Shown here: piece by piece, positions 1 through 47,216 of the stretch
Numbering within the stretch: position 1 is the first letter of the stretch
How the letters are laid out: every line of letters begins with the position of its first letter
Assembly (NCBI RefSeq): GCF_030389965.1
Contig: NZ_CP128399.1
Span: forward strand, 62,001-126,000
Direction of reading: 5' to 3'
DNA length: 64,000 nt
From: Candidatus Chlorohelix allophototropha
Lineage (GTDB): Bacteria; Chloroflexota; Chloroflexia; Chloroheliales; Chloroheliaceae
The notes under the pieces: generated by a model
Told to the model about the DNA's origin: nothing
The model's input: the letters and a program-made list of their open reading frames with translations, nothing else
Databases searched by the model: none
Made by a program: the position numbers and the translations under genes

Positions 1-2762
1 CACCTTGGGGTGAAGGTGTTGCTCCATGGCTTAGAGGGCTGGTTCTTCCAAATTACACACCATCTGCTCCTACTAAAGCCGAAATAACGCTTGCGCCTTT
101 CAACCCTGTTGCTGAACAGCAAATAGCGCGCCAAAAGTTTATTCATACTGATGAGTTTGATGCCGATAAGCCCCAATGGGTAGAGGAAGCCGCTGTTTCA
201 GCAGAATCTACAGATGAAACAAGACCGCTTTCGATGCGTGAATTGTTGCGACAGACTAACGAACTTGCCGGTCCTGAGATGTTGTTACAAGAGGTAAAAT
301 CTTCGGAGGATATAACTACACCTCCGTTAATTGATATACATCAACGCCCCACCGAAGAATTCAGCCTTGCCGATTTGGATATACAACAAATATCGGATAG
401 TCCTGTAAATTTGCCGGAAGCTGCCTCGTCTGAGGAAAACCTGATTGAGCAAGTAGCCTCTCTTGATATGCCGGAATGGCTGAGTAGTGAGATAAAAGCA
501 ACCGGAAGTCAAGAAACCCTTGATGAACTGCCAGCATGGTTGAAAGCCGAAATTGGCGATGAGCCAGTTACACCTCCACCCGGAGTAATGCCGGATTGGC
601 TTACAACCGGAGTCCAAACTGAGAAGCAAGCACAGGAAGAAGAAGCTATACCCGATTGGCTAGGTGAAATCTCACCGTCTGAACCTACTTCTGTTGAAGA
701 AGAGATACCGGATTGGCTAAAGGGTTTAAAAGAAGAGCTACCAGAAGAAAAAACCATTGCCCCTGTACCCACCGAAGAGTATCCGCAGTGGTTGGGCGAT
801 GTTGACGTGCAAGCCACCGCTAAACCGGCTGAGCAAATGCCGGAGTGGTTACAATCGCCTATTTCTGAAAGCGCTACTGCCGCCCCTGACACTCAGCCAG
901 AGTCTGCTGAAGATAAATTAGAACCGTTTGACCTTGCTCATTTTGTGGAGACAGAACCAGAAGTTGACGAGTCATCTCATACAGTTGTGGATGCGTCAAG
1001 TACTTCTAGTTCTGAAATTCCGGAATGGCTAGGTGAATTTGAACATCCGCAAGGTCAGGCAGGTGAGGAAGAACCACCTGAGTGGCTCAAATCTATGATG
1101 CAAGGTACTGCTCCATCTCGTAAAGCGGAAGAAGCGCCTAAAACCTATTCGCAGGTAGGCTCTTACGCTTTGGATGAGCAGCTTGAAAATATACCGGAAT
1201 GGCTCAAGGATAAAACTGAAGCTCCTGTTGCAAATACCGCTGCGGCGACTCCGGTTGCGCAAGAGTCCCAGATAGGCGCATTATTGCGTGAAATCGCGCT
1301 GCTGGGCGATGATGAACAATTGCCCGTGACAACTCCGGAATGGCTCAATACCGAAAAGAAACCTGAGCCTGAACCTGAGCCTGAAATACCCATGCCGCTC
1401 TCTGAAATACCGGATTGGTTAAAAGATGATACGGCAAATCTTAAGGGTATCGCTCAAGTGGCGGACGTTGGTACTCTCCAGCCAAATTTGCAAATGCCAC
1501 AGGTGGAGGTTGCTACTCCTTTTGAAATAGAAGGTCAGAACTTCCTCGGTGACCTAGATGTACCATCATGGTTGGTACAACAATCCCAACCTGCTGTTGT
1601 TGCGCCTGCTCAACCCCTGACTCAGCCCACCCCGGCAGAATTTGTGCCTGGGCAATTACCCGCTTGGTTGCGCACTGTTGGTCCGACTGTAACTGAAGAA
1701 CCAGATCAACTTACCGATTCGGTTAAACTTGTCGGTAGCCTTCCTTTAGTGACTATACCGATAACGTTGGCTGGTGCAGAGGTGCTTAATACTTTGCTAT
1801 CCTCCCCACATAAAATAGCAGTTGAGGATAAAAAAGAGCAGAAAAAACCGCTCATCAGCCAAGCTATCTTGATAAGATACGCAGGTTTTATGGTGCTGTT
1901 ACTGGCGGCGTTGCTTGGTATTCTGTTAACACCGCTAAAAGATGCCTCTATTAATATTCAGCCTTCTACCCTCAATTTCTTTACTGCGGTTGAAAGTCTG
2001 CAACCAAATCAGAAGGTGTTGCTGGCTTATGATTGGGATGCTGAAGTAAACGGCGAAATGCGAAGCCTATCTCAGAGTGTGACCCAGCATGTTATGGCGA
2101 AACGTTCGCGCATTGTGACGGTTAGTTTGAACCCACAAGGACCTGCCCTTGCCAGCCAAATTCTGAACGAACTTGCTACTCGCCCTGAATATGGTAATAG
2201 CGCCACTCGTCTTTACGAATATGGAATCGGCTATTTGAATCTAGGCTACCGTTCCGGCAATGAAGCCGCTTTGCGCAGCCTTTTCTCAAATATCGGCGCT
2301 TTGCCCGATTACAAGAAAGGCGCACAGGCATCCAGTTACCCGGTGATGCAAGGGATTAACGGTTTACAAGATTTTGACATGATAATTGTGCTGGCTGGGA
2401 ATGACGGCAGTGTACGTTCATGGGTCGAGCAATTAAGTATTCAGCCAAATGCCCGACTGTTATTGGTAACTCCCTCGGCAGTCGAACCTTTCGCGCAGCC
2501 TTATGTGTTTGGTCCTCCTGCTGCGGACACGCAAACCATCGGCAAGTTTACCAGACCACAAGCTTTGCTAACGGGATTGAACGGTGCGGCGCAATATCAG
2601 CAGTTACTGCTTGACCGTAATATTTCTTCAGATCGGAATCTGAATTTGCTCCAACGCCTAAATGCGCAAACTTTTGCAGCGTTGGGGTTGGTCTTGATAA
2701 TTATTGTAGTGAACGTGGTTTACTTATCGACTGAGTTAAGGAAACGACGGGGGTCTGCCTGA
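1..2762 (+). CDS. P-[ED]-W-L repeat membrane protein (5' partial)
   Basis: The reading frame is open from the window edge (first full codon at 3), so the N-terminus lies outside; 919 residues are visible. The first two thirds are acidic, Pro/Glu-rich and probably disordered, with at least 14 copies of a short motif P-x-W-L (mostly I/M-P-E-W-L or I-P-D-W-L) spaced irregularly. A hydrophobic helix follows at visible residues about 620-645, then a folded region of about 245 residues, then a C-terminal helix at about 890-912 and a basic tail. Seen: two membrane segments with the repeat region and the tail on one side, probably cytoplasmic, and the folded domain outside. The stop overlaps the next start by one base, so the two are translationally coupled. 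I do not recognise a family. The repeats look like docking motifs for a partner protein (inference). Confidence 0.85.
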   Translation, partial: PWGEGVAPWLRGLVLPNYTPSAPTKAEITLAPFNPVAEQQIARQKFIHTDEFDADKPQWVEEAAVSAESTDETRPLSMRELLRQTNELAGPEMLLQEVKSSEDITTPPLIDIHQRPTEEFSLADLDIQQISDSPVNLPEAASSEENLIEQVASLDMPEWLSSEIKATGSQETLDELPAWLKAEIGDEPVTPPPGVMPDWLTTGVQTEKQAQEEEAIPDWLGEISPSEPTSVEEEIPDWLKGLKEELPEEKTIAPVPTEEYPQWLGDVDVQATAKPAEQMPEWLQSPISESATAAPDTQPESAEDKLEPFDLAHFVETEPEVDESSHTVVDASSTSSSEIPEWLGEFEHPQGQAGEEEPPEWLKSMMQGTAPSRKAEEAPKTYSQVGSYALDEQLENIPEWLKDKTEAPVANTAAATPVAQESQIGALLREIALLGDDEQLPVTTPEWLNTEKKPEPEPEPEIPMPLSEIPDWLKDDTANLKGIAQVADVGTLQPNLQMPQVEVATPFEIEGQNFLGDLDVPSWLVQQSQPAVVAPAQPLTQPTPAEFVPGQLPAWLRTVGPTVTEEPDQLTDSVKLVGSLPLVTIPITLAGAEVLNTLLSSPHKIAVEDKKEQKKPLISQAILIRYAGFMVLLLAALLGILLTPLKDASINIQPSTLNFFTAVESLQPNQKVLLAYDWDAEVNGEMRSLSQSVTQHVMAKRSRIVTVSLNPQGPALASQILNELATRPEYGNSATRLYEYGIGYLNLGYRSGNEAALRSLFSNIGALPDYKKGAQASSYPVMQGINGLQDFDMIIVLAGNDGSVRSWVEQLSIQPNARLLLVTPSAVEPFAQPYVFGPPAADTQTIGKFTRPQALLTGLNGAAQYQQLLLDRNISSDRNLNLLQRLNAQTFAALGLVLIIIVVNVVYLSTELRKRRGSA

Positions 2763-3427
2763 TGGATTGGTCAAGCCTAGGAACAGGTATTGCGGTGGTA
2801 CTGACACTGATGATATATAGCTATCTGGTAGGCGACAATGTGCTGTTCCGGATTGCCGAATATCTGCTGGTGGGGGTTAGTATCGGTTGGTCTACTTTAC
2901 AAATAATATTTGGAATTATTATTCCGGCGTTTGATTCTGTACGACAGGAAACTGCCGGAGGTTCACCCACCTTAGCTACCGTTTTAACCTTTGCAATTCC
3001 GCTAGTTCTGGGCGCACTTTTGCTGGTTAGAGTAGGACGCGCCACTCGCTCTCTCCATAATCTCATAATGGCGTTGGTAATCGGTACGGTTTCTGCGCTG
3101 GCATTGGCAGGTGCAGTATTCGGCACTCTAGTTCCGCAGGTTGGGCAAACAATTGTTAATCTGCGTGGGGGCGCGGGGTCGAATAGCTGGGATATTCTCG
3201 GCAATATTGTGCTGGTAGCAGGTGTGTTGCTTTCGCTGGCTTATTTCCAGTTTACCATTCGTAAGAACCCTGAAGAAAGTGGTACTGCTCAAGCAGGGGT
3301 GATAGTGCGTTTGTTGGGGCGCTGGTCTTTAATGCTAGCCTTTGGCGCAATTTTTGGGTCAGTATTCCTGACTTATTTTGCGGCTTTGATAGATCGGCTG
3401 ATGTTTCTTATCAAATTAGGAGGCTGA
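2762..3427 (+). CDS. Polytopic membrane protein, unknown function
   Basis: 221 residues, about six hydrophobic segments with short loops and no obvious catalytic motif. The ATG shares its A with the stop of the upstream P-[ED]-W-L protein, and the next gene begins five bases after its stop, so it sits in the middle of a tight operon. Loops are poor in conserved charged residues, which argues against a transporter with a charged translocation path. I do not recognise the family. Context suggests that it forms a membrane complex with the bitopic upstream protein and the ASKHA ATPase downstream (inference). Confidence 0.85.
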   Translation: MDWSSLGTGIAVVLTLMIYSYLVGDNVLFRIAEYLLVGVSIGWSTLQIIFGIIIPAFDSVRQETAGGSPTLATVLTFAIPLVLGALLLVRVGRATRSLHNLIMALVIGTVSALALAGAVFGTLVPQVGQTIVNLRGGAGSNSWDILGNIVLVAGVLLSLAYFQFTIRKNPEESGTAQAGVIVRLLGRWSLMLAFGAIFGSVFLTYFAALIDRLMFLIKLGG

Positions 3428-3431
3428 TCCG

Positions 3432-5681
3432 GTGTTTTCCAGTCGTCAAATGCTGGCGGGGCAAATTGAGTCGGCGTTGGTAGCGGATTGCGGCAGCAAT
3501 GTAACCCGCGTGGTTTTGATAGAAATCGTCGATACTGCCTATCGCTTTATAGCTCGCGGCGAAGCGCCTAGCACTGCCGAAGCCCCATTTATGGATGTAA
3601 CTGTCGGAATCATGAACGCCATCGCTTCGATTGAAGCCAGCACCGGTCGAAAACTTATTTCTAACGGGCGTATTCTGATACCACAAGAAGATGACCGTAC
3701 TGGCGTAGATGCTTTCTTGGCAAGTAGTAGCGCTGCCGAATCTTTGCGGTTAGTTGCCGCTGGTTTGGTAAAAAATGAATCGGCTGAGGCTGCGGCACGT
3801 GGTAGCCATTCCACTTATACCACCGTGTTGGATACTATCAGTCTTGATGATTACGGTGATGACTTTGACCCTGAAACCGATTTTACTACCGTCGAGATTG
3901 ATTTTGATAATCCTGAAGCCGAATTTAATCCTTTTAAGGGTTCCACTGCCAGACCGCCTATTTTTGGTAGCGCGCAGGAAGATTTAGTCAGCAAACGTAC
4001 AAAAAAGAAACAAAAAGGCATAAGCCTAGCCGGTGACCGCACGTTGCGACATTGGCGTGAGCGGCAAATCGCCAAATTGCGGAGATTAAGCCCCAACTTT
4101 ATCGTAATGAGCGGTGGCGTGGATAGCGCTTCTTACCAACCTTTATTGGATTTGCTCGATGTGTTGCTTGAAGCTAATCGCCAAGAAGCAGTACTGGCAA
4201 TGGCAACTGGCGTATCTCATAAAGCGCCTACCCTTATATTTGCTGGTAATTCAAAAGCGCATGATGCTCTGCTGGAGAAAATGGCAGGGCAGTTGGAGTG
4301 TTTCCTCGTAGATAATATCAGACCCGTCCATGAGCGGGAGAATCTTGAACCTCTTCAGAACCAACTTTCCTTACTATATCAGGAAAGGCTCTTGCCGGGC
4401 TTGCCGGGCTATCAGAAACTTGCCCAATTATCGAGTGGGCAGATAAATACAACCTGTCGTGCAGTTGGTTTGATGACTCGCTATTTGGCGCATCAGATTG
4501 AGGGAAATAAGGTTCTGACCGCCGATATTGGCGGGAACAACACTTCTCTGTTTTATGCCACCGCCGAAGAATTTAACTCGATGGTGCAGGGCGATTTTGG
4601 CTTAAGCTATGGGCTGAGTAATGTACTAGCCCAAACAGGGGTAGCAAGGATAATACGCTGGATTCCTTTTAAAATTACTGAAGATGAGGTAATCCATTAC
4701 GCCTTGAACAAAACCCTGCGCCCAAAATCTATTCCCGCCGATGAACGTGAGCGTTATATCGAAGCCGCGTTTGCGCGTGAGGCTTTGCGCTGTAACTATA
4801 TAATGCTATCCAAACAGAGTTCCAAAGGGCTGGATTATAACCGGGTTATCGGGGCGGGTGGTCCTTTGGTAAATGTTAACCCTTGGCATGCAGTATTGAT
4901 GTTGTTGGATGCTTTTGAGCCTGCCGGAAGTGCAGGAACGGGCTTACTTGATATAGAGCTTGATACCACAATGCTCATGTCAACTGCCGGTACGCTGGCA
5001 ACTTATAACGCCAATGCAGCGGCTTACCTATTCCAATATGATTGCCTTAACCGACTCGGTTCGGTAGTTGTACCGTTGGGGCATGCCTCACCGGGTAGCC
5101 TTGCCGTAACTATAAGTTTGCATACTCGTTCTGGGCGTACTCGCGAATTGAAAGTGAAATACGGCGATATAGAAATTATTCCTTTTTATTCCGATGAAGA
5201 AGCAACCCTTGAGATTGTACCTTCACCTGGTTTCAGAATCGGTAGCGCCGCTGCAGGCGTACCGGTACGTAGCCAAGAATTTATTAGTGGCGGTTCGGTG
5301 GGGTTGATTATTGATGCGCGTGGTCGCCCTTTACACTTTTCTTCTAACTCAGATGAGCGGCAAGAAGCAGTTGCACGCTGGTATAGCGCTTATCGCAATG
5401 CTCTCCAAAGAGCCGAGCAGGATACTCAGGGGGGTTATTCGTTGAAGGCTTTGACCACTCGCAAAGCTCAACCTTCTCAACCCGTGACTGAACCAAAAGC
5501 GCCGTCTGAAAAAGAGCCAGTGAAAGCCGCGCCTGCTCCAAAGCCGCTGGCGAAGACAAAACCGCAAAAAACTTTCACGCCAGCCAAGAAGAAAACTGAA
5601 GAACCGCCAGCCCTTTCAGAGCTAACTCCTGAAGAGCTATTGCGAAGAGAATTGACCGGAAAAGGCAAGAAGAAAAGATAG
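3432..5681 (+). CDS. GlmL/MutL-family ASKHA ATPase with extra tail
   Basis: 749 residues. The start is GTG with AGGAGG about 8 bases upstream. Actin-like ATPase signatures are visible: phosphate-1 loop V-A-D-C-G-S-N-V-T (Asp19), phosphate-2 loop T-A-D-I-G-G-N (Asp365) and a G-A-G-G-P adenosine motif near 474-478. Spacing and text match the glutamate mutase MutL/GlmL family, proteins thought to act with B12-dependent mutases. Family members are usually well under 500 residues; this one has an acidic insertion at about 115-185, a basic stretch, and a Lys/Pro/Ala-rich tail from about 675 to the end. No mutase lies beside it; instead it is cotranscribed with two membrane proteins. That context recalls PilM-type ASKHA proteins that bind membrane partners, so a structural or regulatory role is as likely as a mutase chaperone (inference). 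Confidence 0.8.
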   Translation: MFSSRQMLAGQIESALVADCGSNVTRVVLIEIVDTAYRFIARGEAPSTAEAPFMDVTVGIMNAIASIEASTGRKLISNGRILIPQEDDRTGVDAFLASSSAAESLRLVAAGLVKNESAEAAARGSHSTYTTVLDTISLDDYGDDFDPETDFTTVEIDFDNPEAEFNPFKGSTARPPIFGSAQEDLVSKRTKKKQKGISLAGDRTLRHWRERQIAKLRRLSPNFIVMSGGVDSASYQPLLDLLDVLLEANRQEAVLAMATGVSHKAPTLIFAGNSKAHDALLEKMAGQLECFLVDNIRPVHERENLEPLQNQLSLLYQERLLPGLPGYQKLAQLSSGQINTTCRAVGLMTRYLAHQIEGNKVLTADIGGNNTSLFYATAEEFNSMVQGDFGLSYGLSNVLAQTGVARIIRWIPFKITEDEVIHYALNKTLRPKSIPADERERYIEAAFAREALRCNYIMLSKQSSKGLDYNRVIGAGGPLVNVNPWHAVLMLLDAFEPAGSAGTGLLDIELDTTMLMSTAGTLATYNANAAAYLFQYDCLNRLGSVVVPLGHASPGSLAVTISLHTRSGRTRELKVKYGDIEIIPFYSDEEATLEIVPSPGFRIGSAAAGVPVRSQEFISGGSVGLIIDARGRPLHFSSNSDERQEAVARWYSAYRNALQRAEQDTQGGYSLKALTTRKAQPSQPVTEPKAPSEKEPVKAAPAPKPLAKTKPQKTFTPAKKKTEEPPALSELTPEELLRRELTGKGKKKR

Positions 5682-5688
5682 TGGGACT

Positions 5689-6879
5689 ATGAGCGTTAAT
5701 ATGCGTTTCCAACAAGCAACCCCCGTTCCGGCGTTTCGCCCCTACCCAACGTTGGCGTGGAATATTCCTATAGTGGTGGAACGCTATCTGCCGCTTGTGG
5801 GTGAGGTAGTTGTTGCCGGGGGTCAGCGGGTGGATAATGACACGCCTGTAGCACGCACTCTTTTGCCCGGTCGTCCTAGCTTATTCAATCTTAGCGAGTA
5901 TTTTGATATGCCTCCTAAGGAAGTAACTAAGCTGATGCTCAAAAAGGTGAGCGATCGCCTTTCTGATGGAGAGATTATTGCCCAGAAAAAAGGGTTTAGG
6001 GGCATGCAGTTTCGCGCACCTTTCGCCTCTACCTTGAGCGCGTATGATGAGGCAATCGGCTATTTAAGCCTGAATCCTTCGCCCACACCTTTAGTGTTGG
6101 AAGCCTTTGTACGAGGGGTAGTTTCCGAGACTGTGCCGGGTTACGGTGTAAAGATAGAAACTAGGGCAAATTACCTGCGAGGGGCGGTTGGTTTCGGTGG
6201 TGAGGTTCACGGTGTATTACGTAGCATGGTAGCCGACCCAATTCAATCGGTGAGTCCCGAAAGTATAGACGCACGTAGCACCTATTTTATTTTGTTGGCA
6301 GGGGCAGTGGTTACGGCTGAGGTTTTGCGTAAGGCGGTAGAATTTCGGGTAAAAGGTGTCATTGCCGGAAGCATGCGCGAAGAAGAAATGACCAAGTTTT
6401 TGGATTATCGTAAACGCGAATCTTTTTATCAAGTGGGACAAAATAACTGGCGGTTTCCCGCCGAAGTCAATCCCCTTGATTGCCCCTTTACGCTGATCTT
6501 GACCGAAGGATTTGGGCAACGCCCTATGGCGAATCGGGCATTTGATATGTTGACAGATCAAAACGGTTTGCAAATTTCGCTAAATGGCACAACACGCTTG
6601 CGGCGTGGGTGGCAACGCCCTGAAGTAATCGCCGTGGTTGGCTCAGAATATATGCATCCATCCACCGATATAAGCCTTGAAGCACAGTTGCCGCGCATTA
6701 ATTCGCTGGTCAGGCTCACCAATCCGACTTATCTGGGCGTATTAGGGAGGGTTATAAACTTACCACAGCGTCGTTATGTGGGCGCTAATTCGCTCGACCG
6801 TTTGGTGGAAGTGGAAGTGGGTGGCGGTAGAAAGCTAATGATTCCAGCCGTTGATATGGAGGTGCTGGAGCAATATTAG
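5689..6879 (+). CDS. Conserved hypothetical protein, last gene of ASKHA operon
   Basis: 396 residues, soluble, starting with ATG seven bases after the upstream stop. No signal peptide and no transmembrane segment are seen. The middle (about 140-190) is rich in Gly/Val with alternating hydrophobic residues and looks like beta structure; the segment at about 60-110 is helical and basic. A G-S-M-R-E-E-E-M stretch near residue 228 follows what looks like a Rossmann-like hydrophobic strand pair. I do not recognise a family and assign no function. Its position as the distal gene of a compact operon suggests that it is a soluble partner of the ASKHA ATPase or of the membrane proteins. Confidence 0.8.
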   Translation: MSVNMRFQQATPVPAFRPYPTLAWNIPIVVERYLPLVGEVVVAGGQRVDNDTPVARTLLPGRPSLFNLSEYFDMPPKEVTKLMLKKVSDRLSDGEIIAQKKGFRGMQFRAPFASTLSAYDEAIGYLSLNPSPTPLVLEAFVRGVVSETVPGYGVKIETRANYLRGAVGFGGEVHGVLRSMVADPIQSVSPESIDARSTYFILLAGAVVTAEVLRKAVEFRVKGVIAGSMREEEMTKFLDYRKRESFYQVGQNNWRFPAEVNPLDCPFTLILTEGFGQRPMANRAFDMLTDQNGLQISLNGTTRLRRGWQRPEVIAVVGSEYMHPSTDISLEAQLPRINSLVRLTNPTYLGVLGRVINLPQRRYVGANSLDRLVEVEVGGGRKLMIPAVDMEVLEQY

Positions 6880-6974: not shown

Positions 6975-9900
6975 ATGCAGTTATACCAGTTAACAAAACG
7001 AAAAGGCTTTGCCTTAGTTGCCACCTCGGTAATGGTGCTGGCTCTTGTTATTGCGTTTAGCGACATTTTCAACTGGCTTAACTTTCCTCGCAATCCCGCT
7101 TTCTTTCTATTCAGAACTTTTATTGCGGCGATTGTATTGCTGGTTTGGCTGGTTTTGAATCTGCCACCTCCTAAGTTGCCCACCGGAAAATTTATTATTG
7201 CGCTAGCGGAATTTAGCCAAGAAAGAGAACCGGATGGCGGCTATAATGGCGTATTACGACCTGAGCCAATCCGGCGTTTGCCACTTCGTCGCTTTTCCGA
7301 ACCTGTTCAGTACGAGGATGAAACCTTACCTTTTGAAGAAAGCTTGCACGGAAGCCGCTTTCTCGATAACTTGCGACAGAAACGCCGGGCGCAGCCTGTA
7401 GCGGCGTTGCGTGGAGAAAAACGAGCCGCTGCTCTGCCTGAGAATTATGCCCGAAATGGCTTGAACTTAGCTACTTCCACCCCATTGGCAACTCGCCCGA
7501 ATCGCAGTGCTACACAGTATGCTGCTGCCGATTCCACTGCCGTTTCTCGCCTTGTTACCGGGGTTAGCACCAATTCAAGGTTGGTTGCCACTAACGAAAT
7601 AGGGGAGCCGCAACAGGAAGGCAAGACGCGCCACAAATTCACCCCCCCTGATTATTTAAACCGTTGGATGTATGTGAGCGGGGCGCGTCAAATATCAGCT
7701 TTTTTAGTGGAAGGAATCGGGCGGGCAATTAGTCAGGCAGGTGTGGACGATCTGGCGATTTTCAAAACCGATTACGCCGATGACTCCGTTACTGCCAAGC
7801 AACATGCCGAACTGAACCGGGCGCATGTGGTTATTTGGGGTTGGAACACTTATCATACTCGGCGCGAGTTTGTGCCAGTATTTGAAATACTGGCTTCGCT
7901 GGAAGATGCACCACCTCCCGCAGGTGATATGCAGATAATGTGTTTATCCAGCTTTGAACTGGGGCTACATTCGGTACATCATAGCACTTCTTCTTTCAAT
8001 GCTTTCGTATCGGGGTTGGGCGCATACGGTTTGCGCAAATTCGAGCAGGCACGCAATGAATTCAGTTTGGCGCTCATCGCCAATATAATGAGCGAAGTTT
8101 ATCCACGCTATGAAAATCCTGTGGCGCGCGCCATTATCTATTTTTTCCTAGGTAATGCTTATTACTATTGCAACCAACTTGAGAAAGCCTTGCGTTGTTA
8201 TCAGGAAGCATGGGCGCTTGATAGCCAGTTATTTGAGGCTCGCGTAAATATGGGGGTTGTACTGGCGTTACAGGGCAAGCTCGATTTTGCGGTTAAAAGC
8301 TTTATTGGGGTGGTACGGGATAATCCTGAACTGGCGGTAGCTCGTTACAACTTGGGGATGGCTTATCTGGAAAAGGGTGATTTCGGTAAGTGCCGCCGCG
8401 AGTTGGGGAATGCCATCAAGATTAACCCACGCTATGCCGTAGCCTACCGCGGGTTGGGTATATCTTACCTGAAGGAATTGCAACTATCTGAGCAGAATCG
8501 TTCGGATAATAAGGCTTTGCCATCCCCCAAACAAGATAATTCTGATAATCATCTACTTTATGAGGAAGCCATTACTCGTATTGGCGAGGCGTTGCGGCTT
8601 AAGCCCGATTACGCTCGCGCCAGAGTAGATTTGGGGCGCATCCGGTTACATCAAGCGCAATCCGGTTTGTATGATTCTGAAAAATGCTATCATCAAGCTT
8701 CTGCAGAATTGCAGGAAGCAATCCGGATTGATCATACACTGGTAGAAGCCCATTACATGTTAGGCTTGTTACTGCGTGAACAACAAGACCTCGAAAGTGC
8801 GGTACTGTCGCTCAAAGAAGCGGTGCGCCAGAGTCGTACCGAGCGCGACCCATTCTATGCGTTGGCACACTACGCACAGGGTGAAATTTATCAGCAACGC
8901 GGTCAGGTTGAGTTAGCCAAGGAAGAGTTCAAGGAAGCCACTCGCGCCCGCGCCGCTTTATCTCCAGCTACCGCGCAGGACTATATTAATCAAGGTATCG
9001 GCTATCTGGGCAACCAGCAATTCGCGGAAGCCCGTGAAGCTTTCCAGAAAGCTTTGCAACTAGAGCCGGATAACGCTGAGGCGATGTTATATATGGGCGT
9101 GGTTTATCAGGAGACCAATCTGCTCAATCAAGCTTTTACCATTTATCAGAATGTCATGAAGTTGCCTAACGCGCCCGAAGAGGTTTATAACCGCTTGAGC
9201 CGCCTCTATTTGGAGTTGGGTGACGAAAAAAATGCTTTCGATCTCATCAAGAACGCCGCCACACGCAACCCGCGCAGCGCGCGCCTTCAATTCTGGCTTG
9301 GCAACGCTTACCGCCGTTCCAAAGACGAGACTCAGGCAATGTCCTGTTATATCAACGCTTTCCGAATTGATCCAGATTCGGCAGACGCTCGTTTTAATCT
9401 GGCGATGATTTACCTCGGTCGCAAGCAGATTCAGGATGCAGTTCTTCAATTTACTGAAGTGGTGCGGATTCGCCCGAACGATTACAGCACTTATATTTTT
9501 CTGGGCAGAGTGTATCTGCAAATGGGACAAACTCAGGAAGCAGTTAATGCGCTCAATGAAGCTATCCGTATCAAACCTGATGCGGTAGAAGCATTACTGG
9601 CACTTGGTCAGATTTACCAGCGACAGGCTGAAGCCGAATCGGCTATTGCTCAGTACGAAACCGCCCTTACCTACTCACCCAACGACTTGCGTATTCGCGA
9701 ATTGCTGGCTTCCGCCTATGCGTTGGCGGGTAGGGTTGAGCTATCCATCGAGCAGTTTCAGGCTGTTCTATCATCAGAACCAAGCCTTGATCAGAAAGCC
9801 GATGCGCACTACAATTTGGGCGTAGCTTATACCTCTCGCGAGAAATACCATCTGGCTGCTCAGGAATTTGTCGAGTATGTTAAACTGAAGCCGACTGATG

Positions 9901-10106
9901 CCGATGGTTATTTTAATTTGGGTCTTGCCTACAAGAACCAAGGCATGATAATGGAATCGATAGACGCTCTCAGTAAGGCGATTGAGTTGCGTTCTACTTA
10001 CGCCACCGCATACCAGTTGCGTGGACAACTTTTTATTGCTATAAATGATAATGAACATGGTATCGCCGATTTGCAAGCGTTCCAGAGTTTGAAAGCAAGA
10101 CAATAG
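6975..10106 (+). CDS. Membrane-anchored TPR protein
   Basis: 1043 residues. Two hydrophobic helices near the N-terminus (about 11-31 and 41-63) form a hairpin anchor. A basic, low-complexity linker follows to about 215, then a compact region at about 225-340 containing V-V-I-W-G-W-N, and then some fifteen or more tetratricopeptide repeats from about 345 to the C-terminus. TPR consensus residues (A at position 8, G-Y at 11-12, A at 20, P at 32) recur clearly, for example in A-x-x-N-L-G-x-A-Y. TPR solenoids bind other proteins, so this is probably a cytoplasmic scaffold held at the membrane. No good ribosome-binding site is seen before the ATG, so the exact start is uncertain. The small acidic gene downstream follows after 18 bases. 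Confidence 0.88.
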   Translation: MQLYQLTKRKGFALVATSVMVLALVIAFSDIFNWLNFPRNPAFFLFRTFIAAIVLLVWLVLNLPPPKLPTGKFIIALAEFSQEREPDGGYNGVLRPEPIRRLPLRRFSEPVQYEDETLPFEESLHGSRFLDNLRQKRRAQPVAALRGEKRAAALPENYARNGLNLATSTPLATRPNRSATQYAAADSTAVSRLVTGVSTNSRLVATNEIGEPQQEGKTRHKFTPPDYLNRWMYVSGARQISAFLVEGIGRAISQAGVDDLAIFKTDYADDSVTAKQHAELNRAHVVIWGWNTYHTRREFVPVFEILASLEDAPPPAGDMQIMCLSSFELGLHSVHHSTSSFNAFVSGLGAYGLRKFEQARNEFSLALIANIMSEVYPRYENPVARAIIYFFLGNAYYYCNQLEKALRCYQEAWALDSQLFEARVNMGVVLALQGKLDFAVKSFIGVVRDNPELAVARYNLGMAYLEKGDFGKCRRELGNAIKINPRYAVAYRGLGISYLKELQLSEQNRSDNKALPSPKQDNSDNHLLYEEAITRIGEALRLKPDYARARVDLGRIRLHQAQSGLYDSEKCYHQASAELQEAIRIDHTLVEAHYMLGLLLREQQDLESAVLSLKEAVRQSRTERDPFYALAHYAQGEIYQQRGQVELAKEEFKEATRARAALSPATAQDYINQGIGYLGNQQFAEAREAFQKALQLEPDNAEAMLYMGVVYQETNLLNQAFTIYQNVMKLPNAPEEVYNRLSRLYLELGDEKNAFDLIKNAATRNPRSARLQFWLGNAYRRSKDETQAMSCYINAFRIDPDSADARFNLAMIYLGRKQIQDAVLQFTEVVRIRPNDYSTYIFLGRVYLQMGQTQEAVNALNEAIRIKPDAVEALLALGQIYQRQAEAESAIAQYETALTYSPNDLRIRELLASAYALAGRVELSIEQFQAVLSSEPSLDQKADAHYNLGVAYTSREKYHLAAQEFVEYVKLKPTDADGYFNLGLAYKNQGMIMESIDALSKAIELRSTYATAYQLRGQLFIAINDNEHGIADLQAFQSLKARQ

Positions 10107-34596: not shown

Positions 34597-37500
34597 TTAT
34601 TTTTTTGGACCTATAGCTTTGCTATATTCGCTCAGTGCCCAGTGATAATGTCCTTGCTTCATATATGCATCACCTAGAACACGATGGTAACGTGGCAATT
34701 CAGTGGATTGGGACGACATTTCTTGCAACTTAGCCACTATATTGTCGAGGGCGCTTTTATCTGCCAGCTTTATTGAAGTAGCGTAATATTCGAGAGCTTG
34801 TTTGTACTCTTTTTGCTGCATATAAGCGATACCAAGCTCAAAATTGGCAGAAAAATCACGCGGGTTGTTCTGTAGACGCTTCAGGTAATCTGATAAATCT
34901 GCTACGGGTGCCGGTTCTGCGGCAATTAATTCAGTTTCCTTCACCTGTAGCGTTTCAGGCTCAACCGGAGTAGCAGCCTCTTGCGTTTCCTGTATTTCTA
35001 CAGGTATAGGCTGAGTTTCTGCCAGTGTTGCTGGCTCATGCAATGGCTTGTATTCTTCAACCGCCGCATGCTCTGTTTCTGGAAGATGCGGTAAGGCTTC
35101 TGCATAAGATTCTTCCACTGGCGACTCACTATGCTCAGGTGTGAAGTCAGTTAGAATGTTCTCAGCCTCGGGTTGCCTCGCCAATCCGAAATCGAAGTCA
35201 GGCAGTTCTTCCTCAAGATTTGCGGTAGGTACTTGCTCTGGTATTGTGATACCAAAGACTTTAGAAGCTTCATCAAACGACATTAAATTACCGGCAGTTT
35301 GTGGCTTTTCCGGTTCAGGATGGAACATCGCCAACCCCTCATCGGTATGTTGTTGCAAAAACTCCGGTTCATTGAAAAAGTCACCCAATAAGTCTAACTC
35401 GGCGGGCTTCTGTTCCTGCGCTTTTACTTCAGGTTCAGCAAACAGATTATCAAAGCTAAACTGCTCGGTTGGCTCTGGTTCACTATAGGAAGCGGGAATT
35501 TCTTCAGCCTTTGGTTCTTGTGCTTTTACTTCAGGTTCAGCAAACAGATTATCAAAGCTAAACGGTTCGGCTGGCTCTGGTTCTACGTAGAAGGTGGGCG
35601 TTTCTTCAATTGCCGATTCTTGCACCTTTTCAGCAGGTTCAGTAAACAGGCTATCAAAGTTGAATGGTTCGGCTGGCTCTGATTCAGCATAGGAAGCGGG
35701 AATTTCTTCGGCTGCTGGTTCTTGCGATTTTGCTTCAGGTTCAGCAAACAGATTATCAAAGCTGAACGGTTCGACTGGTTCAAAAGCGGGAATTTCTTCG
35801 GCTGCTGGTTCTTGCACCTTTTCAACAGTTTCAGTAAACAGGCTATCAAAGTTGAACGGTTCGGCTGGCTCTGGCTCAACATAGAAGGTGGGCGCTTCTT
35901 CGGCTGTAAGGAATGGAGCAAAACTAAAATCGCTTTCCGCTTTACTATCAAAAGGTTCAGCGGCAATCGGCTCGAATGGTTTTGTTTCCTCATCGAAACT
36001 AAGCGGGAACAATTCTTCTTCAGCTACCGGAGCAACCTCTTCAGTAAGAGGTTCGTCTGGTTTAAAGCTGAACGGCACGGCTTCTTTGGGCAGTTCTTGC
36101 GTTTTAAAGGTAGCAGGCGCAAATTCATTTAGGTCAAAATTATCGAAATGCAACTCTCCGAGATCAAAAGCCTCTTGCTCAACCTGTGTTTCGGCAACAC
36201 CTTCGGTAAAGGCGGTTTGCATTTCGGCTTCAAGCTCTGGTTTAAAAACTGGAATCGCTTCTTCTCCAAATGGATTGGCTTGATTAGCCGCAGTTGTGAA
36301 GCTTTCAGCGATACCACTTTGCTCAGCTAATGCCGTTTCCTCTGTTTCGCCCGTTGCTGCCATTCGCTCGACTTCTTCAAATGATGGGAAAATATCGAAC
36401 TCTTGCGCTACAGGTTCTTCCTGCTTAACCGATTCAGTCGGAATCTGCCCTTGCTCTTCAAGTTGGCGACGGCGGGCTGCCATTCGTTCGAACATCGAAC
36501 CGCTTGCCTTCGCTTCTTCGGCTTCAGATTCTAATTCTGAGGATTTTCTCTTGCGATTTTCCAGCCAACTAAAGCGGCGCAACGGTCGTTCTTGTCCGGG
36601 TTCTACTTCCGGTTCAGGTTCACGCGGACGACGTGTAGTAGAAGGCATAAAAGGTTCGGGTTGATAATCGTTCAATTCGGGACGCAAGGCTGATTTACCT
36701 TTACCCAAACCGGGTATTGATTCGAATCCTTCTAGCGAGAATGGTTCAAGCTCCAATCCTTCCAAGTCATCTAAAGATGACTCATCAGTGAATGGGCGTT
36801 GGTGCTGTGGGTTAGAGGAAAGCCCGCCAAAACCGGGTATTCCGGTTGGGGAGTTGTCCAGAGAAGCGGCGGATGATAAATCATTCAGTTTCATTCCGCT
36901 CATATCTTGGAAGCCTTGCGATTTTAATGCTCCGGGAGGGCTACCCGCTTGGGAGTTGGGTAATTCTTCCTCAAAGGTGAATGGTTCTAGGTCATCCAGA
37001 TTCTCTCCACTTTCAAAAGGTGACATTGGTGGAGTGAAACCGCGTGGCGCTCCAAAAGGACTGGTCGCCGGGGGTTGGTTGAATTGAATCGGTGGTGGAA
37101 CCTGCGCTTGCGGCTTCTGGATTTTTTCGACCGCTTCTTCAAAAGGATTGAAAGGTATCAAATCCTCCATATCCCCAAAACCGGAAGGTGGGGTGAAAGC
37201 TGTAGGTGGCTGCACCGAGGTAGGTTGAACCGGTGGTTTGGTGGGCGCATTTGCTTGGGCTCCAAATCCGGGAGTTGGCGGTTGCCCGGTAATATCTTCA
37301 AAAGAGAATGGGATAAGATCATCATCATTAAAAGGTGAAATCGAGGCGGCAGGCTTGTCAAAATCCATATCATTCGGGGTAAATGCCTGCAACGGTTGGT
37401 TATTAAAGGTCGGTAGTGGCGCTTGTGGCGCTGTCGGTGGTGGTGGTGGCGTTTGCATAACCGGACCACCAAAAACTCCCGATTCTTCGAGCGAGAATGG

Positions 37501-39690
37501 CTGTAGTTCATCCAACCCAAAATCACCGGCGGGTGGATTGAATGAAGCACTAGGATTTACTTGACCTTCCATAGTGCTATCTACCCAATTGGGAAGATCG
37601 CTAGGAGGCATACTACTGCCTAAATCCATCATATTTGGACGGGCGGTTGTACTCTGGCGATTTGCGCCGGGGTTTAGCCAATCGGGAAGGTCACCACCGC
37701 CAAGCGTATCATCGCGAGGGCGCACGCGGGCAGGTGAGGTAGACACATCAACAATCGGAGGGTTTTCTTGTTGCGCGCCAAACTTTTCGGCTTCTTCTTC
37801 ATTCATTGCAAAAGGTCGTAGATAATCCGGAAGTTCTTCTCGTTCCCAATCAAATAAATCGATTTCTTCTTCCGGTTTGCCTTTTTTGATAGGCATTTCC
37901 TCAATCTCCTTGCTAGCTGAGGAAGCTACACTATTTTCGGTTTGTAATACTTCCTCTTCCAACACGCCGGTGGGTGGAATAATTGTACTTTCGGCTAGTT
38001 CATTGGCGGCATAGGCAGGTTCTGGACCACGCTCATCACGCAGATGGAAGGCATGCTCCTGAATTTTACCGGGAGTATCAGTTTCAGCCGGAACAGCCCA
38101 TTCTTCAGCAATAACTTCAACTACTTCTTCTTTTTCATTAACCGTTGCTTGTATCTGCTGCTCTACAAATAGATTCTCAAGGTATGAATTATCATATGGA
38201 GTCTCTTGTTGGTCAGGGTTGGTTGCAGCTGGTTGCTCAAAATTGCTCAGTTCATCATCAAGCTCAAAATCAAACCCTAAATCTGGCTGTTCTTGGAAAG
38301 ATTCGTTAGATGTTGCCAGATTTGCAGCCAGATTTGGCGCTGGGGTAAAATCTTCTTCATCAAACAGGTCAAATAATTCGTTAGAAGTACTAACTTCCTC
38401 TTGATTGCCCGATTCAGCAATAGGGATATTTACGCCTGCTGGATAAGCTGAAGCCCCAAAATCTGTTACTTCTAAATCTTCCTGCTCTTCTTGCTCGGAA
38501 TCGAAACTAAAAGGTTGTAGCCCCACAAGTTCTTCGTCAGGTACTTTCGGCGCAACAGAGGTTTGCGAAGGGGCAAGGGTTGCAGCATGCGGTATATCTA
38601 TATCATCAAAGAAACTATCGAAGGAACTATCTTCATCACCTCGCCTGATTTTTTCAAGCTCGGCGATTGCTTCAGCTTCTTCCTGTGCTTTATTTTCCTG
38701 CTCTACAACTGCTTCGCTCTCGGCTAGCAAACGCTCAAACCAGTCATTTTCCCCGGAAAGCTCTTTAAGGGTGCTTTTTTCCTCTTCATCGGGGTTTACG
38801 CCTTTCAAGCCAAGTTGTAGGTCGGTTGCAGTATCGGCGGTAACCCATGCAGGTAAAAGAGGCTGATTTTCTTTTTCGGCTTCGAGTTTTGACCAGTCTG
38901 GCGGTGGCAATTGCGCAGCCCCTAACATTCCCAGATAATTTAAGGCTCCATCCGAAGCGGCAGGGTCTTCAAAGAGGCGTTCAGCTACTAGATACAACGG
39001 GTCAAGCGCTTGCGCTTTTTCCAGATAAGTGGCGGCTCTTTCCTCGCGACGGCGCACTCCATAAATATGCCACAAAATCAGGTTGCATTTGATCAGGTAG
39101 GGTTGTTCTTCCAGCAGTTCGCGGCAAAGTTGCTCTGCTCGGTAGTAATCGCGATTGCGCCAATAGGCTTCTGCCAACCCGGTTTGAATATCTAGGCGGT
39201 TGGGGGTTTCGCGAAGGATTGAGAGAAACTCGTCAATCGCTTGGCTGAAAAAACCATCGCGGATACGCTGATGAGCCAACCCGGCTTTGGTAAGTCGCAA
39301 GCGCGGACGATCCATGCCTTGATGTTCGCGGTATAGGCGTAGTAGCTCCACCCGCAATTGTTCTATATTGGGGTCAAGCTCTAGCGCACGCTCATAATAA
39401 ACGATGGCGTTGTCGATATCGCCTCGTTCATACGCGATAAAACCTCTATCTACATAGCCAAGCACGTCATGTGGGTCTGCTGCTAGAACGTAGGTGAACA
39501 GTTTATCCGCTTCGTCTAATAGACGTTTCTCGGTATAAGCTTCACCTAGTTCGCGTGTAGCTTCAAGACAACGAGGGTAATAACGGAAAACATGCTGGCA
39601 TAACAAAACTGCCTTATCAGGCTCCCCATTCTCCATGAGTTGCTTAGCCTGATTAATAATTTCATCGAGTTTAACTCGTTCGCCCGCCAT
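34597..39690 (-). CDS. Giant TPR scaffold with acidic motif-rich middle
   Basis: 1697 residues. The N-terminal ~290 residues are TPR repeats (E-L-G-E-A-Y-T-E, then A-I-V-Y-Y-E-R-A-L-E-L-D-P). The next ~1250 residues are acidic, Pro/Glu/Phe-rich and probably disordered, with recurring short motifs: about a dozen copies of [EQI]-P-F-[STN]-[FL]-[DE] and P-D-W-L / P-N-W-V / P-D-Y-L like the left-end protein. The last ~110 residues are two or three more TPRs. No membrane segment. Within the middle are five near-identical units of about 30 residues (35400-35880). A Roadblock gene follows. TPR proteins that bind MglA-type GTPases are known (SgmX of Myxococcus); a similar role here is inference. Confidence 0.9.
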   Translation of the reverse strand: MAGERVKLDEIINQAKQLMENGEPDKAVLLCQHVFRYYPRCLEATRELGEAYTEKRLLDEADKLFTYVLAADPHDVLGYVDRGFIAYERGDIDNAIVYYERALELDPNIEQLRVELLRLYREHQGMDRPRLRLTKAGLAHQRIRDGFFSQAIDEFLSILRETPNRLDIQTGLAEAYWRNRDYYRAEQLCRELLEEQPYLIKCNLILWHIYGVRRREERAATYLEKAQALDPLYLVAERLFEDPAASDGALNYLGMLGAAQLPPPDWSKLEAEKENQPLLPAWVTADTATDLQLGLKGVNPDEEEKSTLKELSGENDWFERLLAESEAVVEQENKAQEEAEAIAELEKIRRGDEDSSFDSFFDDIDIPHAATLAPSQTSVAPKVPDEELVGLQPFSFDSEQEEQEDLEVTDFGASAYPAGVNIPIAESGNQEEVSTSNELFDLFDEEDFTPAPNLAANLATSNESFQEQPDLGFDFELDDELSNFEQPAATNPDQQETPYDNSYLENLFVEQQIQATVNEKEEVVEVIAEEWAVPAETDTPGKIQEHAFHLRDERGPEPAYAANELAESTIIPPTGVLEEEVLQTENSVASSASKEIEEMPIKKGKPEEEIDLFDWEREELPDYLRPFAMNEEEAEKFGAQQENPPIVDVSTSPARVRPRDDTLGGGDLPDWLNPGANRQSTTARPNMMDLGSSMPPSDLPNWVDSTMEGQVNPSASFNPPAGDFGLDELQPFSLEESGVFGGPVMQTPPPPPTAPQAPLPTFNNQPLQAFTPNDMDFDKPAASISPFNDDDLIPFSFEDITGQPPTPGFGAQANAPTKPPVQPTSVQPPTAFTPPSGFGDMEDLIPFNPFEEAVEKIQKPQAQVPPPIQFNQPPATSPFGAPRGFTPPMSPFESGENLDDLEPFTFEEELPNSQAGSPPGALKSQGFQDMSGMKLNDLSSAASLDNSPTGIPGFGGLSSNPQHQRPFTDESSLDDLEGLELEPFSLEGFESIPGLGKGKSALRPELNDYQPEPFMPSTTRRPREPEPEVEPGQERPLRRFSWLENRKRKSSELESEAEEAKASGSMFERMAARRRQLEEQGQIPTESVKQEEPVAQEFDIFPSFEEVERMAATGETEETALAEQSGIAESFTTAANQANPFGEEAIPVFKPELEAEMQTAFTEGVAETQVEQEAFDLGELHFDNFDLNEFAPATFKTQELPKEAVPFSFKPDEPLTEEVAPVAEEELFPLSFDEETKPFEPIAAEPFDSKAESDFSFAPFLTAEEAPTFYVEPEPAEPFNFDSLFTETVEKVQEPAAEEIPAFEPVEPFSFDNLFAEPEAKSQEPAAEEIPASYAESEPAEPFNFDSLFTEPAEKVQESAIEETPTFYVEPEPAEPFSFDNLFAEPEVKAQEPKAEEIPASYSEPEPTEQFSFDNLFAEPEVKAQEQKPAELDLLGDFFNEPEFLQQHTDEGLAMFHPEPEKPQTAGNLMSFDEASKVFGITIPEQVPTANLEEELPDFDFGLARQPEAENILTDFTPEHSESPVEESYAEALPHLPETEHAAVEEYKPLHEPATLAETQPIPVEIQETQEAATPVEPETLQVKETELIAAEPAPVADLSDYLKRLQNNPRDFSANFELGIAYMQQKEYKQALEYYATSIKLADKSALDNIVAKLQEMSSQSTELPRYHRVLGDAYMKQGHYHWALSEYSKAIGPKK
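35400..35880 (-). repeat. Internal tandem repeats in the scaffold gene
   Basis: Five units of roughly 90-105 bases encode F-[SN]-F-D-[NS]-L-F-[AT]-E followed by Lys/Gln/Glu-Pro-rich linkers. Copies share blocks of more than 25 identical bases, for example at about 35431, 35533 and 35737. This suggests recent duplication or gene conversion. Confidence 0.85.
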
Positions 39691-41093: not shown

Positions 41094-42071
41094 CTACTGG
41101 AGCGCTCCATCGAGTAATTTTATAGCTGCTTCGTACAGATCCAATTCGTGCTGCTCAATCCGTTCAAGCAACTCGTTCAGACCACCGGGCGCATTTTCGG
41201 ATTTTAGCAACCGCGTCAATATTTCCTCGCTTATACGTGCGATCATCTCATCACGCAGGCGAAGTTTTTCGCGCTTGCCGTATTCACCGCTGGTTTTCAA
41301 ATAAGCTAGATGGGCTTCCGCTTGATCTACCAGTTCGCAAATACCAGAACCTTCCGCCGCTATGGTTTTAAGAACAGGTATTTCCCAGTTGCGCTTTTTG
41401 GGAGCGAGACTCATCATTGCACGTAGGTGCAATTGCAAGCGTTCGACCCCCTCGCGATCAGCTTTATTAATTACAATCAGGTCGGCAATTTCCAGCACAC
41501 CAGCCTTGATTGCCTGAATATCATCGCCCATGCCCGGTACTTCTACCAATATTGTGGTGTGCGCTGCTTTGGCAATATCAACTTCATCTTGCCCGACACC
41601 GACAGTTTCAAGGATGATGATTTCTTTGCCGAAAGCGTCCATCGCTCGCACCACATCGCTGGTGGCAGAAGCCAATCCGCCCAATTGCCCGCGTGTTGCC
41701 ATGCTACGAATAAATACTTCCTTATCGTTGTAATTTTCGAGCATGCGAATGCGATCGCCCAATACTGCGCCTCCGGTTAGGGTGCTGGTAGGGTCTATCG
41801 CTATCACTCCCACCGAGTAGTTGCGCTTTCGGAATTCCTTGATTAGCTGATTGGTCAAGGTGCTTTTACCTGCACCGGGTGCGCCGGTAATTCCGATGAT
41901 ATGGGCGCGCCCGGTTAGCGGGTAAAGTTGTTTAAGAAGCATGGAGGCTTCGGTAGTACGGTTCTCCACGATGGTGATGGCGCGGGCAAGGGCGCGCCGA
42001 TCACCTCCCTTACCACGTTCTACTAATCCCAGAATTGCTGGAGTAGGTTGCGGGATCGAACTTGAAGACAT
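41094..42071 (-). CDS. meaB: MeaB/ArgK-type GTPase, chaperone of methylmalonyl-CoA mutase
   Basis: 325 residues. SIMIBI-class G3E GTPase: Walker A G-A-P-G-A-G-K-S-T near 62-70, I-A-I-D-P-T-S motif, E-T-V-G-V-G-Q and N-K-A-D. MeaB guards loading and reactivation of adenosylcobalamin in methylmalonyl-CoA mutase. It starts directly at the stop of the B12-binding subunit gene, which confirms the pairing. The catalytic subunit is not in the window. Confidence 0.94.
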   Translation of the reverse strand: MSSSSIPQPTPAILGLVERGKGGDRRALARAITIVENRTTEASMLLKQLYPLTGRAHIIGITGAPGAGKSTLTNQLIKEFRKRNYSVGVIAIDPTSTLTGGAVLGDRIRMLENYNDKEVFIRSMATRGQLGGLASATSDVVRAMDAFGKEIIILETVGVGQDEVDIAKAAHTTILVEVPGMGDDIQAIKAGVLEIADLIVINKADREGVERLQLHLRAMMSLAPKKRNWEIPVLKTIAAEGSGICELVDQAEAHLAYLKTSGEYGKREKLRLRDEMIARISEEILTRLLKSENAPGGLNELLERIEQHELDLYEAAIKLLDGALQ

Positions 42072-42518
42072 TTAGCTTTTTTCACTCCCGGTAGCCGCGC
42101 TTGCCGTTGGGCGCACGTTCTGGCGTATGAAGTTGGCGGTTTCTTCAATGGTAGTGCCGGGACCAAAAACAGCTTGTATGCCCAGCTTTTTGATTTCTTC
42201 CACTTCTTCCGGTGGAATGATGCCTCCGGCGAACACCAGTACATCTTCCATATTATTTTCAGCTAGCAACTTCATGACGCGCGGAAACAGGACAGTATGA
42301 GCGCCGCTGAGAATACTCAATCCAATGGCATCAACATCTTCTTGGAGCGCTGCTTCTAGTATCATTTCTGGGGTCTGGTGCAACCCGGTATAGATTACTT
42401 CCATACCGGCATCTCGTAAGCCGCGTGTTACTACCTTCGCACCCCGATCATGCCCATCTAAACCGGGTTTTGCGATTAATACTCTGATTTTGTGTTGTAC
42501 TTCATTCTGCTGGGTCAT
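42072..42518 (-). CDS. Cobalamin-binding subunit of a methylmalonyl-CoA-type mutase
   Basis: 148 residues from the ATG at 42518, which has AAAGGGAAA upstream; ATGs at 42545 and 42539 would add 9 or 7 residues without a better site. The lower-axial-ligand motif D-G-H-D-R-G (D-x-H-x-x-G) is at about residue 22, followed by S-x-L at S-I-L-S-G and G-G in F-A-G-G-I-I-P. This is the small C-terminal B12 domain as a separate polypeptide, as in split mutases. The large TIM-barrel subunit lies elsewhere. meaB follows without a gap. Confidence 0.93.
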
Positions 42519-42624
42519 AGCATTTCCCTTTCTCAGCATCCGCATTGATTGTAGAATGGTGCCGAATAATGTTAAATTTTATCATGCCTATCAACTCGCT
42601 TCAAATTGAACTGGCTAGAGCAGT

Positions 42625-45802: not shown

Positions 45803-46020
45803 ATTAATTGACTATTGGTTTTACAAATACTATATTGTATAATCAACTCTGAAGCTCCGGGTGCTTTTTTACGCCTTGGTAAAGCACGCCTTAAATTATC
45901 CTTATAGTATTATTCAGCTATTACCAACCTGACAAGCCTATTAGGATAGTTTGGTCCTAAAATTGCCGCAAGCTGTAGCACAACTCCCGCCTGGCATAAC
46001 GGGAATTGACAGGAGAAATT

Positions 46021-46515
46021 ATGGATCCTCAACTAACTAGCATAATAGTTTCTCAGACTGAAACCTCCAATATTGAGGAATGCCTTGAGCGTCTTGTGGC
46101 TGAAACTGGAGCGAACTATTCGATGTTGCTCGACAAGAGCGGGCAAGTTATCGCTTCTCAAGGTGATACCGATCGCCAAGATATAACGGCGTTAGGCGCG
46201 TTGTTAGCAGGTACATTTGCCAGCAGCCGGGAAGTAGCGCGTTTATTAAAAGAAAAAGACTTTAGGGTATTATTCCAGCAGGGCGTTCGTGAGAATATTT
46301 TTACCGAACTGATTCAGGAACAATGGATGCTGGTAGTTATGTTTGATAAGCGCACCCATATAGGTTTGGTAAAAGTGTTAAGCAAACGTGCCACTGATGA
46401 GCTTGGGGCTGTTTTGGAAAGAGTAAAGGTTGAGAGCCGCGCAAAAGATGCTGTAATTAGCACCAGTTTCCGCACCAGCGTGGAAGATACAATTGATCTA
46501 CTCTTTAAGGACTAA
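46021..46515 (+). CDS. Roadblock/LC7-domain protein, longer paralogue
   Basis: 164 residues from the ATG at 46021 with AGGAG eight bases before; a TTG at 46006 overlaps less well. A single Roadblock domain sits at about 15-110 (E-T-G-A-N-Y-S-M-L-L-D-K-S-G-Q-V-I-A-S-Q, then F-A-S-S-R-E-V-A-R), and the C-terminal ~45 residues are a charged helix. Directly upstream (23 bases) of the MglA-like GTPase, the usual position of MglB in other bacteria, so it is the stronger candidate for the GTPase partner. Confidence 0.9.
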   Translation: MDPQLTSIIVSQTETSNIEECLERLVAETGANYSMLLDKSGQVIASQGDTDRQDITALGALLAGTFASSREVARLLKEKDFRVLFQQGVRENIFTELIQEQWMLVVMFDKRTHIGLVKVLSKRATDELGAVLERVKVESRAKDAVISTSFRTSVEDTIDLLFKD

Positions 46516-46538
46516 TTTATACTTGCGGTGAATAAAAA

Positions 46539-47117
46539 ATGGCTCTGATAAATGTTGCGGCTCGCGAAATACACTGCAAAATTGTTTATTACGGACCCGG
46601 CTTATGCGGCAAAACTACAAATTTAAAGTATATCCATTCTGCGGTACCCGGTCATGCCAAAGGTGATTTGCTTTCGATTGCTACCGAAACCGAGCGCACC
46701 TTGTTTTTTGACTTTCTTCCGCTAGATTTGGGTCAGGTTCACGGATTCCAAACCCGCTTCCACTTATATACTGTCCCGGGTCAGGTGCTGTATGAGCGAA
46801 CTCGCGTGGCGGTGTTGAACGGGGCGGATGGGGTAGTTTTTGTAGCAGACAGTCAGCAAAACAAGTTACGCGAGAATATTCAAAGCTTACAGGAATTAGC
46901 CCGAAATATTCAAGCGCAGGGTAAGAAGTTTCTAGAATTTCCACTGGTATTGCAATATAATAAGCGCGATATGCCCAACGCCGTACCGGTTGAAATCTTG
47001 GATCATTATCTAAATTCTTCCATAAAAGTCCCGCGCTTTGAGGCGATTGCCAGCAAGGGCGATGGAGTTTTTGATACTCTTAAGTCAATCAGTAAACTGG
47101 TTATTAGTAAGTTATAA
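46539..47117 (+). CDS. mglA: MglA-like Ras-family GTPase
   Basis: 192 residues. G1 loop G-P-G-L-C-G-K-T-T at about 20-28; the switch region F-D-F-L-P-L-D-L-G; G3 written T-V-P-G-Q instead of D-x-x-G, the mark of MglA-type GTPases; G4 N-K-R-D. In Myxococcus and Thermus MglA sets cell polarity and drives pili or gliding machines. It lies between a Roadblock protein (23 bases upstream) and a DUF4388 protein (99 bases downstream), the conserved module order. Confidence 0.95.
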   Translation: MALINVAAREIHCKIVYYGPGLCGKTTNLKYIHSAVPGHAKGDLLSIATETERTLFFDFLPLDLGQVHGFQTRFHLYTVPGQVLYERTRVAVLNGADGVVFVADSQQNKLRENIQSLQELARNIQAQGKKFLEFPLVLQYNKRDMPNAVPVEILDHYLNSSIKVPRFEAIASKGDGVFDTLKSISKLVISKL

Positions 47118-47216
47118 TTAAGAACAGGGATTAAAGATAGCAGCCATAACAAACTTGTATAGTTTGGTTGCCCTAATCCTCCGGACACAATCTACAGCTA
47201 ACGTGAAGGAAACAGC

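Follow-up and report, generated by a model that had tools for sequence, protein, structure and literature searches.

Some ASKHA proteins work with membrane partners, as PilM and FtsA do by binding cytosolic peptides of bitopic proteins in their IA-IC cleft (PMC7613929). Other members of this fold class are the GlmL/MutL family (PF13941, NF040745, TIGR01319), hydantoinase/oxoprolinase A and the ATP-binding subunits of acetone carboxylase. Here we compare these systems with an ATPase gene (F) and its neighbours in Candidatus Chlorohelix allophototropha, at the start of a 64,000-nucleotide stretch of contig NZ_CP128399.1 (the window; G000:C1:62001-126000 of the whole genome). F shares the ASKHA core and the same three ATP motifs with GlmL/MutL proteins, but it has a DARGRP module, a partner protein (G) and a block of membrane protein genes (B to E), lacks a mutase partner and falls in a separate clade. 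Hydantoinase/oxoprolinase A and the acetone carboxylase subunits are the closest solved folds and align over the whole length of F, but with low TM-scores; at the sequence level no solved structure could be related to F, and no HyuB-like partner was noticed. PilM and FtsA are not its closest folds and have other membrane partners. Among the neighbours of F, gene B is a clear member of DUF6754 (PF20539). The N-terminal barrel-sandwich segments of G weakly resemble NqrA/RnfC, but G as a whole has no fold match at E <= 0.001 and no Rnf or Nqr genes were recognized among the neighbouring proteins read.

We conclude that the cluster probably encodes an uncharacterized membrane-linked machine, and put roughly even odds (about 0.5) on F and G being the cytosolic part, and B, C, D and E the membrane part, of one conserved and undescribed system. 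An earlier note, made from the letters of the window alone, had suggested an envelope machine, which is plausible. No function seems to have been assigned to what would be an entire conserved membrane system with an ATP-driven component, and the database practice of naming F-type proteins after glutamate mutase points to the wrong biology. Pfam gives no function for DUF6754, and a search of open-licence papers under a few names found no mention of it and nothing relevant on GlmL. The whole system matches nothing found, although this absence from the literature is weak evidence because of the reach of that search.

Operon organization

The window opens with four open reading frames on the forward strand, at 3-2762 (D, open at its 5' end), 2762-3427 (E), 3432-5681 (F) and 5689-6879 (G). 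D and E overlap by 1 base, 4 bases lie between E and F, and 7 between F and G, as the earlier note had reported. The window edge cuts gene D, whose true start lies 1266 bases upstream in the whole genome. There, genes A, B and C (170, 263 and 206 amino acids (aa)) precede D on the same strand (G000:C1:58751-60681), with a 1-base overlap between A and B, 6 bases between B and C, and 52 bases between C and D. Because these spacings are short, A-B-C-D-E-F-G look like a single seven-gene operon.

B matches DUF6754 at 1e-39 (136.6 bits against a cut-off of 27), and A, C, D, E and G match no Pfam family. Hydropathy gives two membrane segments in B, six in C, two in D, six to seven in E, and none in F or G. 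B and D each combine two membrane passes with one alpha/beta domain, which the flanking charges place in the cytoplasm for B and outside it for D (predicted), and C and E are polytopic. The polytopic second protein of the earlier note (E, 2762..3427, +; 221 aa) and its soluble fourth protein (G) are upheld. Its label of bitopic for the first protein is wrong because D, 1342 aa long once the missing part of the gene is added, has two membrane segments.

Directly 3' of G, at 6975-10106 (+), is a gene for a large protein that is rich in TPR repeats and has membrane segments near its N-terminus. A genome of the same family (L054) has a 1041-aa protein of similar length after G.

Distribution and co-occurrence

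DUF6754 is carried by 60 of 251 sampled Chloroflexota genomes. All but one of the 60 also encode a MutL protein (F). In 50 genomes F follows B on one contig and strand, at a distance of 2.2-6.3 kb (median 4.0 kb), and in nine it is on another contig. G was likewise found in 59/60. The co-occurrence of B and F has a hypergeometric probability of 7.6e-28, a value that ignores relatedness and is inflated for that reason. However, the spread across phyla is independent of genome relatedness.

The cluster was found in Chloroflexota, Bacillota, Planctomycetota, WOR-3, Cloacimonadota and others. Genes in WOR-3, a planctomycete and a Desulfuromonas-labelled record follow the order A-F-G-B-C-D-E; WOR-3 has the B-C-D-E block twice, and B of a WOR-3 genome matches DUF6754 at 9e-112. 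Bacillota, Cloacimonadota, candidate-phylum and other genomes in which the block B-C-D-E does not adjoin F still have it elsewhere, and most of the unlinked loci read keep its gene order. G directly adjoins F in most other deep Chloroflexota read; in Chloroflexales it lies away from F in the genome, yet is kept. The retention of F, G and B together even when unlinked favours one machine. We therefore regard the association of F with B-C-D-E and G as well supported, with G a near-constant partner of F. The tie between ATPase and membrane genes proposed in the earlier note is borne out by the B-to-F arrangement in those 50 Chloroflexota genomes and by the gene set in other phyla.

Several observations weigh against a single machine of F, G and the membrane block. 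All eight Ktedonobacteria-type genomes searched have F and lack DUF6754, with G beside F at seven of the eight loci, and Thermomicrobia-type genomes likewise lack DUF6754 but encode F, in nearly all cases along with G. Thus, F and G are able to function, or to be retained, where the membrane block is missing. Additionally, four Thermomicrobia-type F sequences (L042, L046, L047 and L049) have lost the three ATP motifs and kept DARGRP, and this F is likely to be a non-ATPase descendant. In both lineages the gene before F, where recognized, encodes a soluble zinc-ribbon protein, which in Ktedonobacteria also carries the motif array described below for D. Loss of the membrane block can thus leave F, G and this gene in place. 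The ATPase is therefore not "locked" with the membrane genes, as had been claimed, and the expected co-occurrence in Chloroflexota without glutamate mutase holds for the DUF6754 genomes (59/60 with F, none with the mutase gene glmE) but not for those classes with F and no membrane block.

This wider spread of F-G than of B-E in Chloroflexota would suit a general cytosolic chaperone or switch, with a regulatory or secondary link to B-C-D-E, and Hsp70s rank high among the structural matches of F. We consider such a role quite unlikely, as many phyla show strict co-occurrence of F-G and B-E, even where the two are not linked.

Two further features were seen outside Chloroflexota. In WOR-3, TA06, Cloacimonadota and one Desulfuromonas-labelled record, A-F-G is immediately preceded by a gcvPB-like gene (~480 aa). 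Its sequence identifies it at loci L082, L112, L128 and L133, and its size alone makes it probable at L090, L092, L122 and L123. We set aside gcvPB (glycine decarboxylase) as a functional link to F, since neither Chloroflexota nor Bacillota were seen to carry it next to F. By eye, several B proteins (L082:12902-14125, L170:4294-5541) begin with a signal-like N-terminus, and an extracytoplasmic segment resembling fibronectin type III precedes their DUF6754 part.

Relationship of F to GlmL

F (3432..5681, +; 749 aa, GTG start) is matched by Pfam MutL (PF13941) at 1.9e-59, in two stretches. It scores 72.9 bits on the GlmL equivalog NF040745 (cut-off 475) and 35.2 bits on the NCBI GlmL family model (cut-off 204), and a WOR-3 F reaches 229 bits on NF040745, again under 475. 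In contrast, two true Chloroflexota GlmLs pass this cut-off with 567-600 bits. The five true GlmLs that were retrieved are 461-483 aa long and lack a DARxRP motif. F proteins do not have this GlmL-type size (~460 aa, ending at the MutL domain); they run ~120 residues past the domain, into a beta module with DARGRP and then a long helix. In a tree built from 43 sequences, the F group and true GlmLs separate with 100/100 support. The earlier description of a 749-aa GlmL/MutL ATPase is accordingly right as to MutL family and length, and wrong as to GlmL. By these sequence comparisons, F is an ASKHA ATPase subfamily of its own, distinct from GlmL and new within a known family.

Gene neighbourhoods separate the two groups as well. 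Three of the five true GlmLs adjoin GlmE, two of them also with GlmS (control loci L180 and L182 carry GlmS, GlmL and GlmE; L181 carries GlmE and GlmL). GlmE scores over its cut-off in 4/251 Chloroflexota genomes and in none of the 60 with DUF6754. Relatives of GlmS, GlmE and MeaB were absent from the 1783 proteins near the loci, with positive controls recovered, and no glutamate or other mutase genes were seen in the homologous operons at the loci examined. One genome (G203) has both a true GlmS-GlmL-GlmE locus and, apart from it, a B-C-D-F-G operon.

These findings bear on whether F could be a mutase reactivase, with the function of GlmL, for a B12 enzyme encoded elsewhere. F does belong to the same Pfam family as GlmL (MutL), and the window itself carries, ~35 kb from F, a MeaB-like GTPase beside a B12-binding mutase subunit (41094-42545, -; read from translations), a chaperone of its own for the B12-mutase machinery of this genome. 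Yet the absence of glmE alongside DUF6754, the lack of mutase-type neighbours and the separate GlmL locus in G203 disfavour a mutase helper, and F fails the GlmL cut-offs. We hold this function to be highly improbable, in agreement with the earlier note, which had argued against a mutase chaperone.

Predicted folds of F and G

The structure model of F (pLDDT 90.5, pTM 0.89) has an ASKHA fold, with a disordered insertion at residues ~145-200, a C-terminal beta module followed by a long helix, and a disordered tail after ~670. The insertion and the tail contribute, with the module, to the extra length of this protein. Alignment locates the ASKHA phosphate-1 motif ADCGSNVTRVV (3483..3515, +; TDCGSTTTKAI in other phyla), the phosphate-2 motif TADIGGNNTSL (4518..4550, +; GVDIGGATTDV) and the adenosine motif VIGAGGPLVN (4845..4874, +; IVGSGGVLSH), all three intact in most F lineages. 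In the C-terminal module, the DARGRP motif (5313..5330, +; residues 628-633) is highly conserved across 69 sequences: D628, R630, G631 and P633 are invariant, and A629 and R632 exceed 90%. A search of the GTDB set with the DARGRP pattern returned 478 stretches, 425 of them confirmed relatives, and the best 80 were kept.

Foldseek comparison of F with the PDB placed N-methylhydantoinase (1.2e-8) and acetone carboxylase subunits first, aligned over approximately the full length of F, and Hsp70-type proteins next. Together with weak Pfam hydantoinase-family matches, biotin/lipoyl-like and RnfC-like segments in G, and the persistence of F and G without membrane genes in some lineages, this raises the prospect that F-G is an ATP-dependent enzyme of metabolism, similar in type to hydantoinase and acetone carboxylase, with B-C-D-E as its substrate transporter or sensor. 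However, the TM-scores of the best matches are 0.24-0.29, so that only the ASKHA fold of F is secure, and true GlmLs share the weak hydantoinase matches; the likeness may therefore be general ASKHA kinship. Sequence-profile searches of solved structures with F gave nothing credible, and the Chloroflexota loci showed no metabolic gene that recurs nearby. We judge an enzyme of this type unlikely, and continue to favour a membrane-linked machine.

G (5689..6879, +; 396 aa) is predicted to have barrel-sandwich-like N-terminal segments, an alpha/beta middle and a KOW/SH3-like C-terminus, based on its model (pLDDT 85.5, pTM 0.81), alignment and Foldseek. Parts of G resemble KOW domains, NqrA and an RraA-like fold, but Foldseek gave no whole-fold match at E <= 0.001, and a profile search of solved structures gave nothing credible. 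One WOR-3 G has weak Biotin_lipoyl and RnfC_N matches. At L121:9983-17091, a Symbiobacterium-labelled locus, there are two tandem F-G pairs, and one G looks like it has a repeated barrel-like segment.

Gene D and its motif array

The window holds the 3' part of gene D (1..2762, +; 919 of 1342 aa), which was interpreted from the whole-genome read, alignment and hydropathy. From its N-terminus, D comprises a zinc ribbon, an acidic, proline-rich cytosolic arm, and an alpha/beta domain flanked by membrane segments at residues 1050-1068 and 1313-1331. A 42-sequence alignment, hydropathy and charges define a conserved core (1881..2726, +) of first transmembrane segment (1881-1937), alpha/beta domain (1938-2669, predicted extracytoplasmic) and second transmembrane segment (2670-2726). 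Profile comparison found no relation of the D core to G or to B.

The arm carries an array of [LIVM]-P-x-W-[LMIV] motifs (469..1680, +), with 11 copies within the window and 13 in the whole protein, against a mean of 0.05 and a maximum of 2 in residue shuffles; P-x-W-L/V motifs total 18. A genome-wide motif scan found no comparable cluster elsewhere in this genome. Chloroflexota D proteins usually have a long acidic, proline-rich arm with about 5-19 copies, and 55 of the 59 neighbourhood proteins with at least two motifs are D, against a background of 815 unassigned neighbours. D in WOR-3 and the planctomycete is the core only (~270-330 aa), without the arm. At 34597-39690 (-), the window also encodes a 1697-aa acidic, repeat-rich TPR protein with three P-x-W-L/V motifs.

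The natural reading of the array is a candidate docking array. Because PilM and FtsA are bound by cytosolic peptides of membrane partners, it is a candidate binding site. That precedent (PMC7613929), the repeated motifs and the presence of FtsA among the structural matches of F would be consistent with F as a scaffold of the PilM/FtsA type, in which short motifs of the D arm bind this actin-like protein and F organizes a pilus- or division-like assembly. Nevertheless, FtsA ranks 39th and PilM is not among the best 50 Foldseek matches listed, D is a two-pass protein, and WOR-3 and the planctomycete have F and the membrane block although their D lacks the arm and its array. The array is thus not the core of the mechanism. 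We consider a scaffold of this kind very unlikely, and the PilM-type likeness drawn in the earlier note is not specifically supported, as hydantoinase and acetone carboxylase come first.

Proposed machine

For the favoured machine of cytosolic F-G and membrane-bound B-C-D-E, the analysis shows gene content, conservation, co-occurrence, the presence of motifs, and predicted topology and folds, and from these we infer a physical complex, ATPase activity, a direction of coupling and a function. Most economically, F would be an ATP-driven switch that acts, with G, on a complex of four membrane proteins. ATP binding and hydrolysis would open and close F, and G would relay this movement to the cytoplasmic side of a B-C-D-E complex, which could put it to use in transport or remodelling, either at the membrane or across it. 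The D arm of Chloroflexota, with its zinc ribbon and ~5-19 P-x-W-L motifs, may serve to tether F or other clients in a multivalent way. With somewhat less assurance, we suggest as a fuller account an undescribed ancient bacterial membrane machine of A-F-G and a B-C-D-E block (duplicated in some phyla), with a new ASKHA ATPase subfamily and a Chloroflexota zinc-ribbon scaffold that bears a unique P-x-W-L docking array. This proposal is directly testable, as few and clearly delimited genes are involved and some of their carriers, such as Chloroflexus islandicus (locus L103), are cultivated.

Other genes in the window

Judged by eye from the translations, consecutive genes at 46006-48026 (+) look like those for a roadblock protein, a small GTPase of MglA-like kind and a DUF4388-like protein, and may form a polarity or motility module. 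A transposase-like open reading frame (54657-55802, +) was seen, also by eye, between a response regulator gene and mutS.

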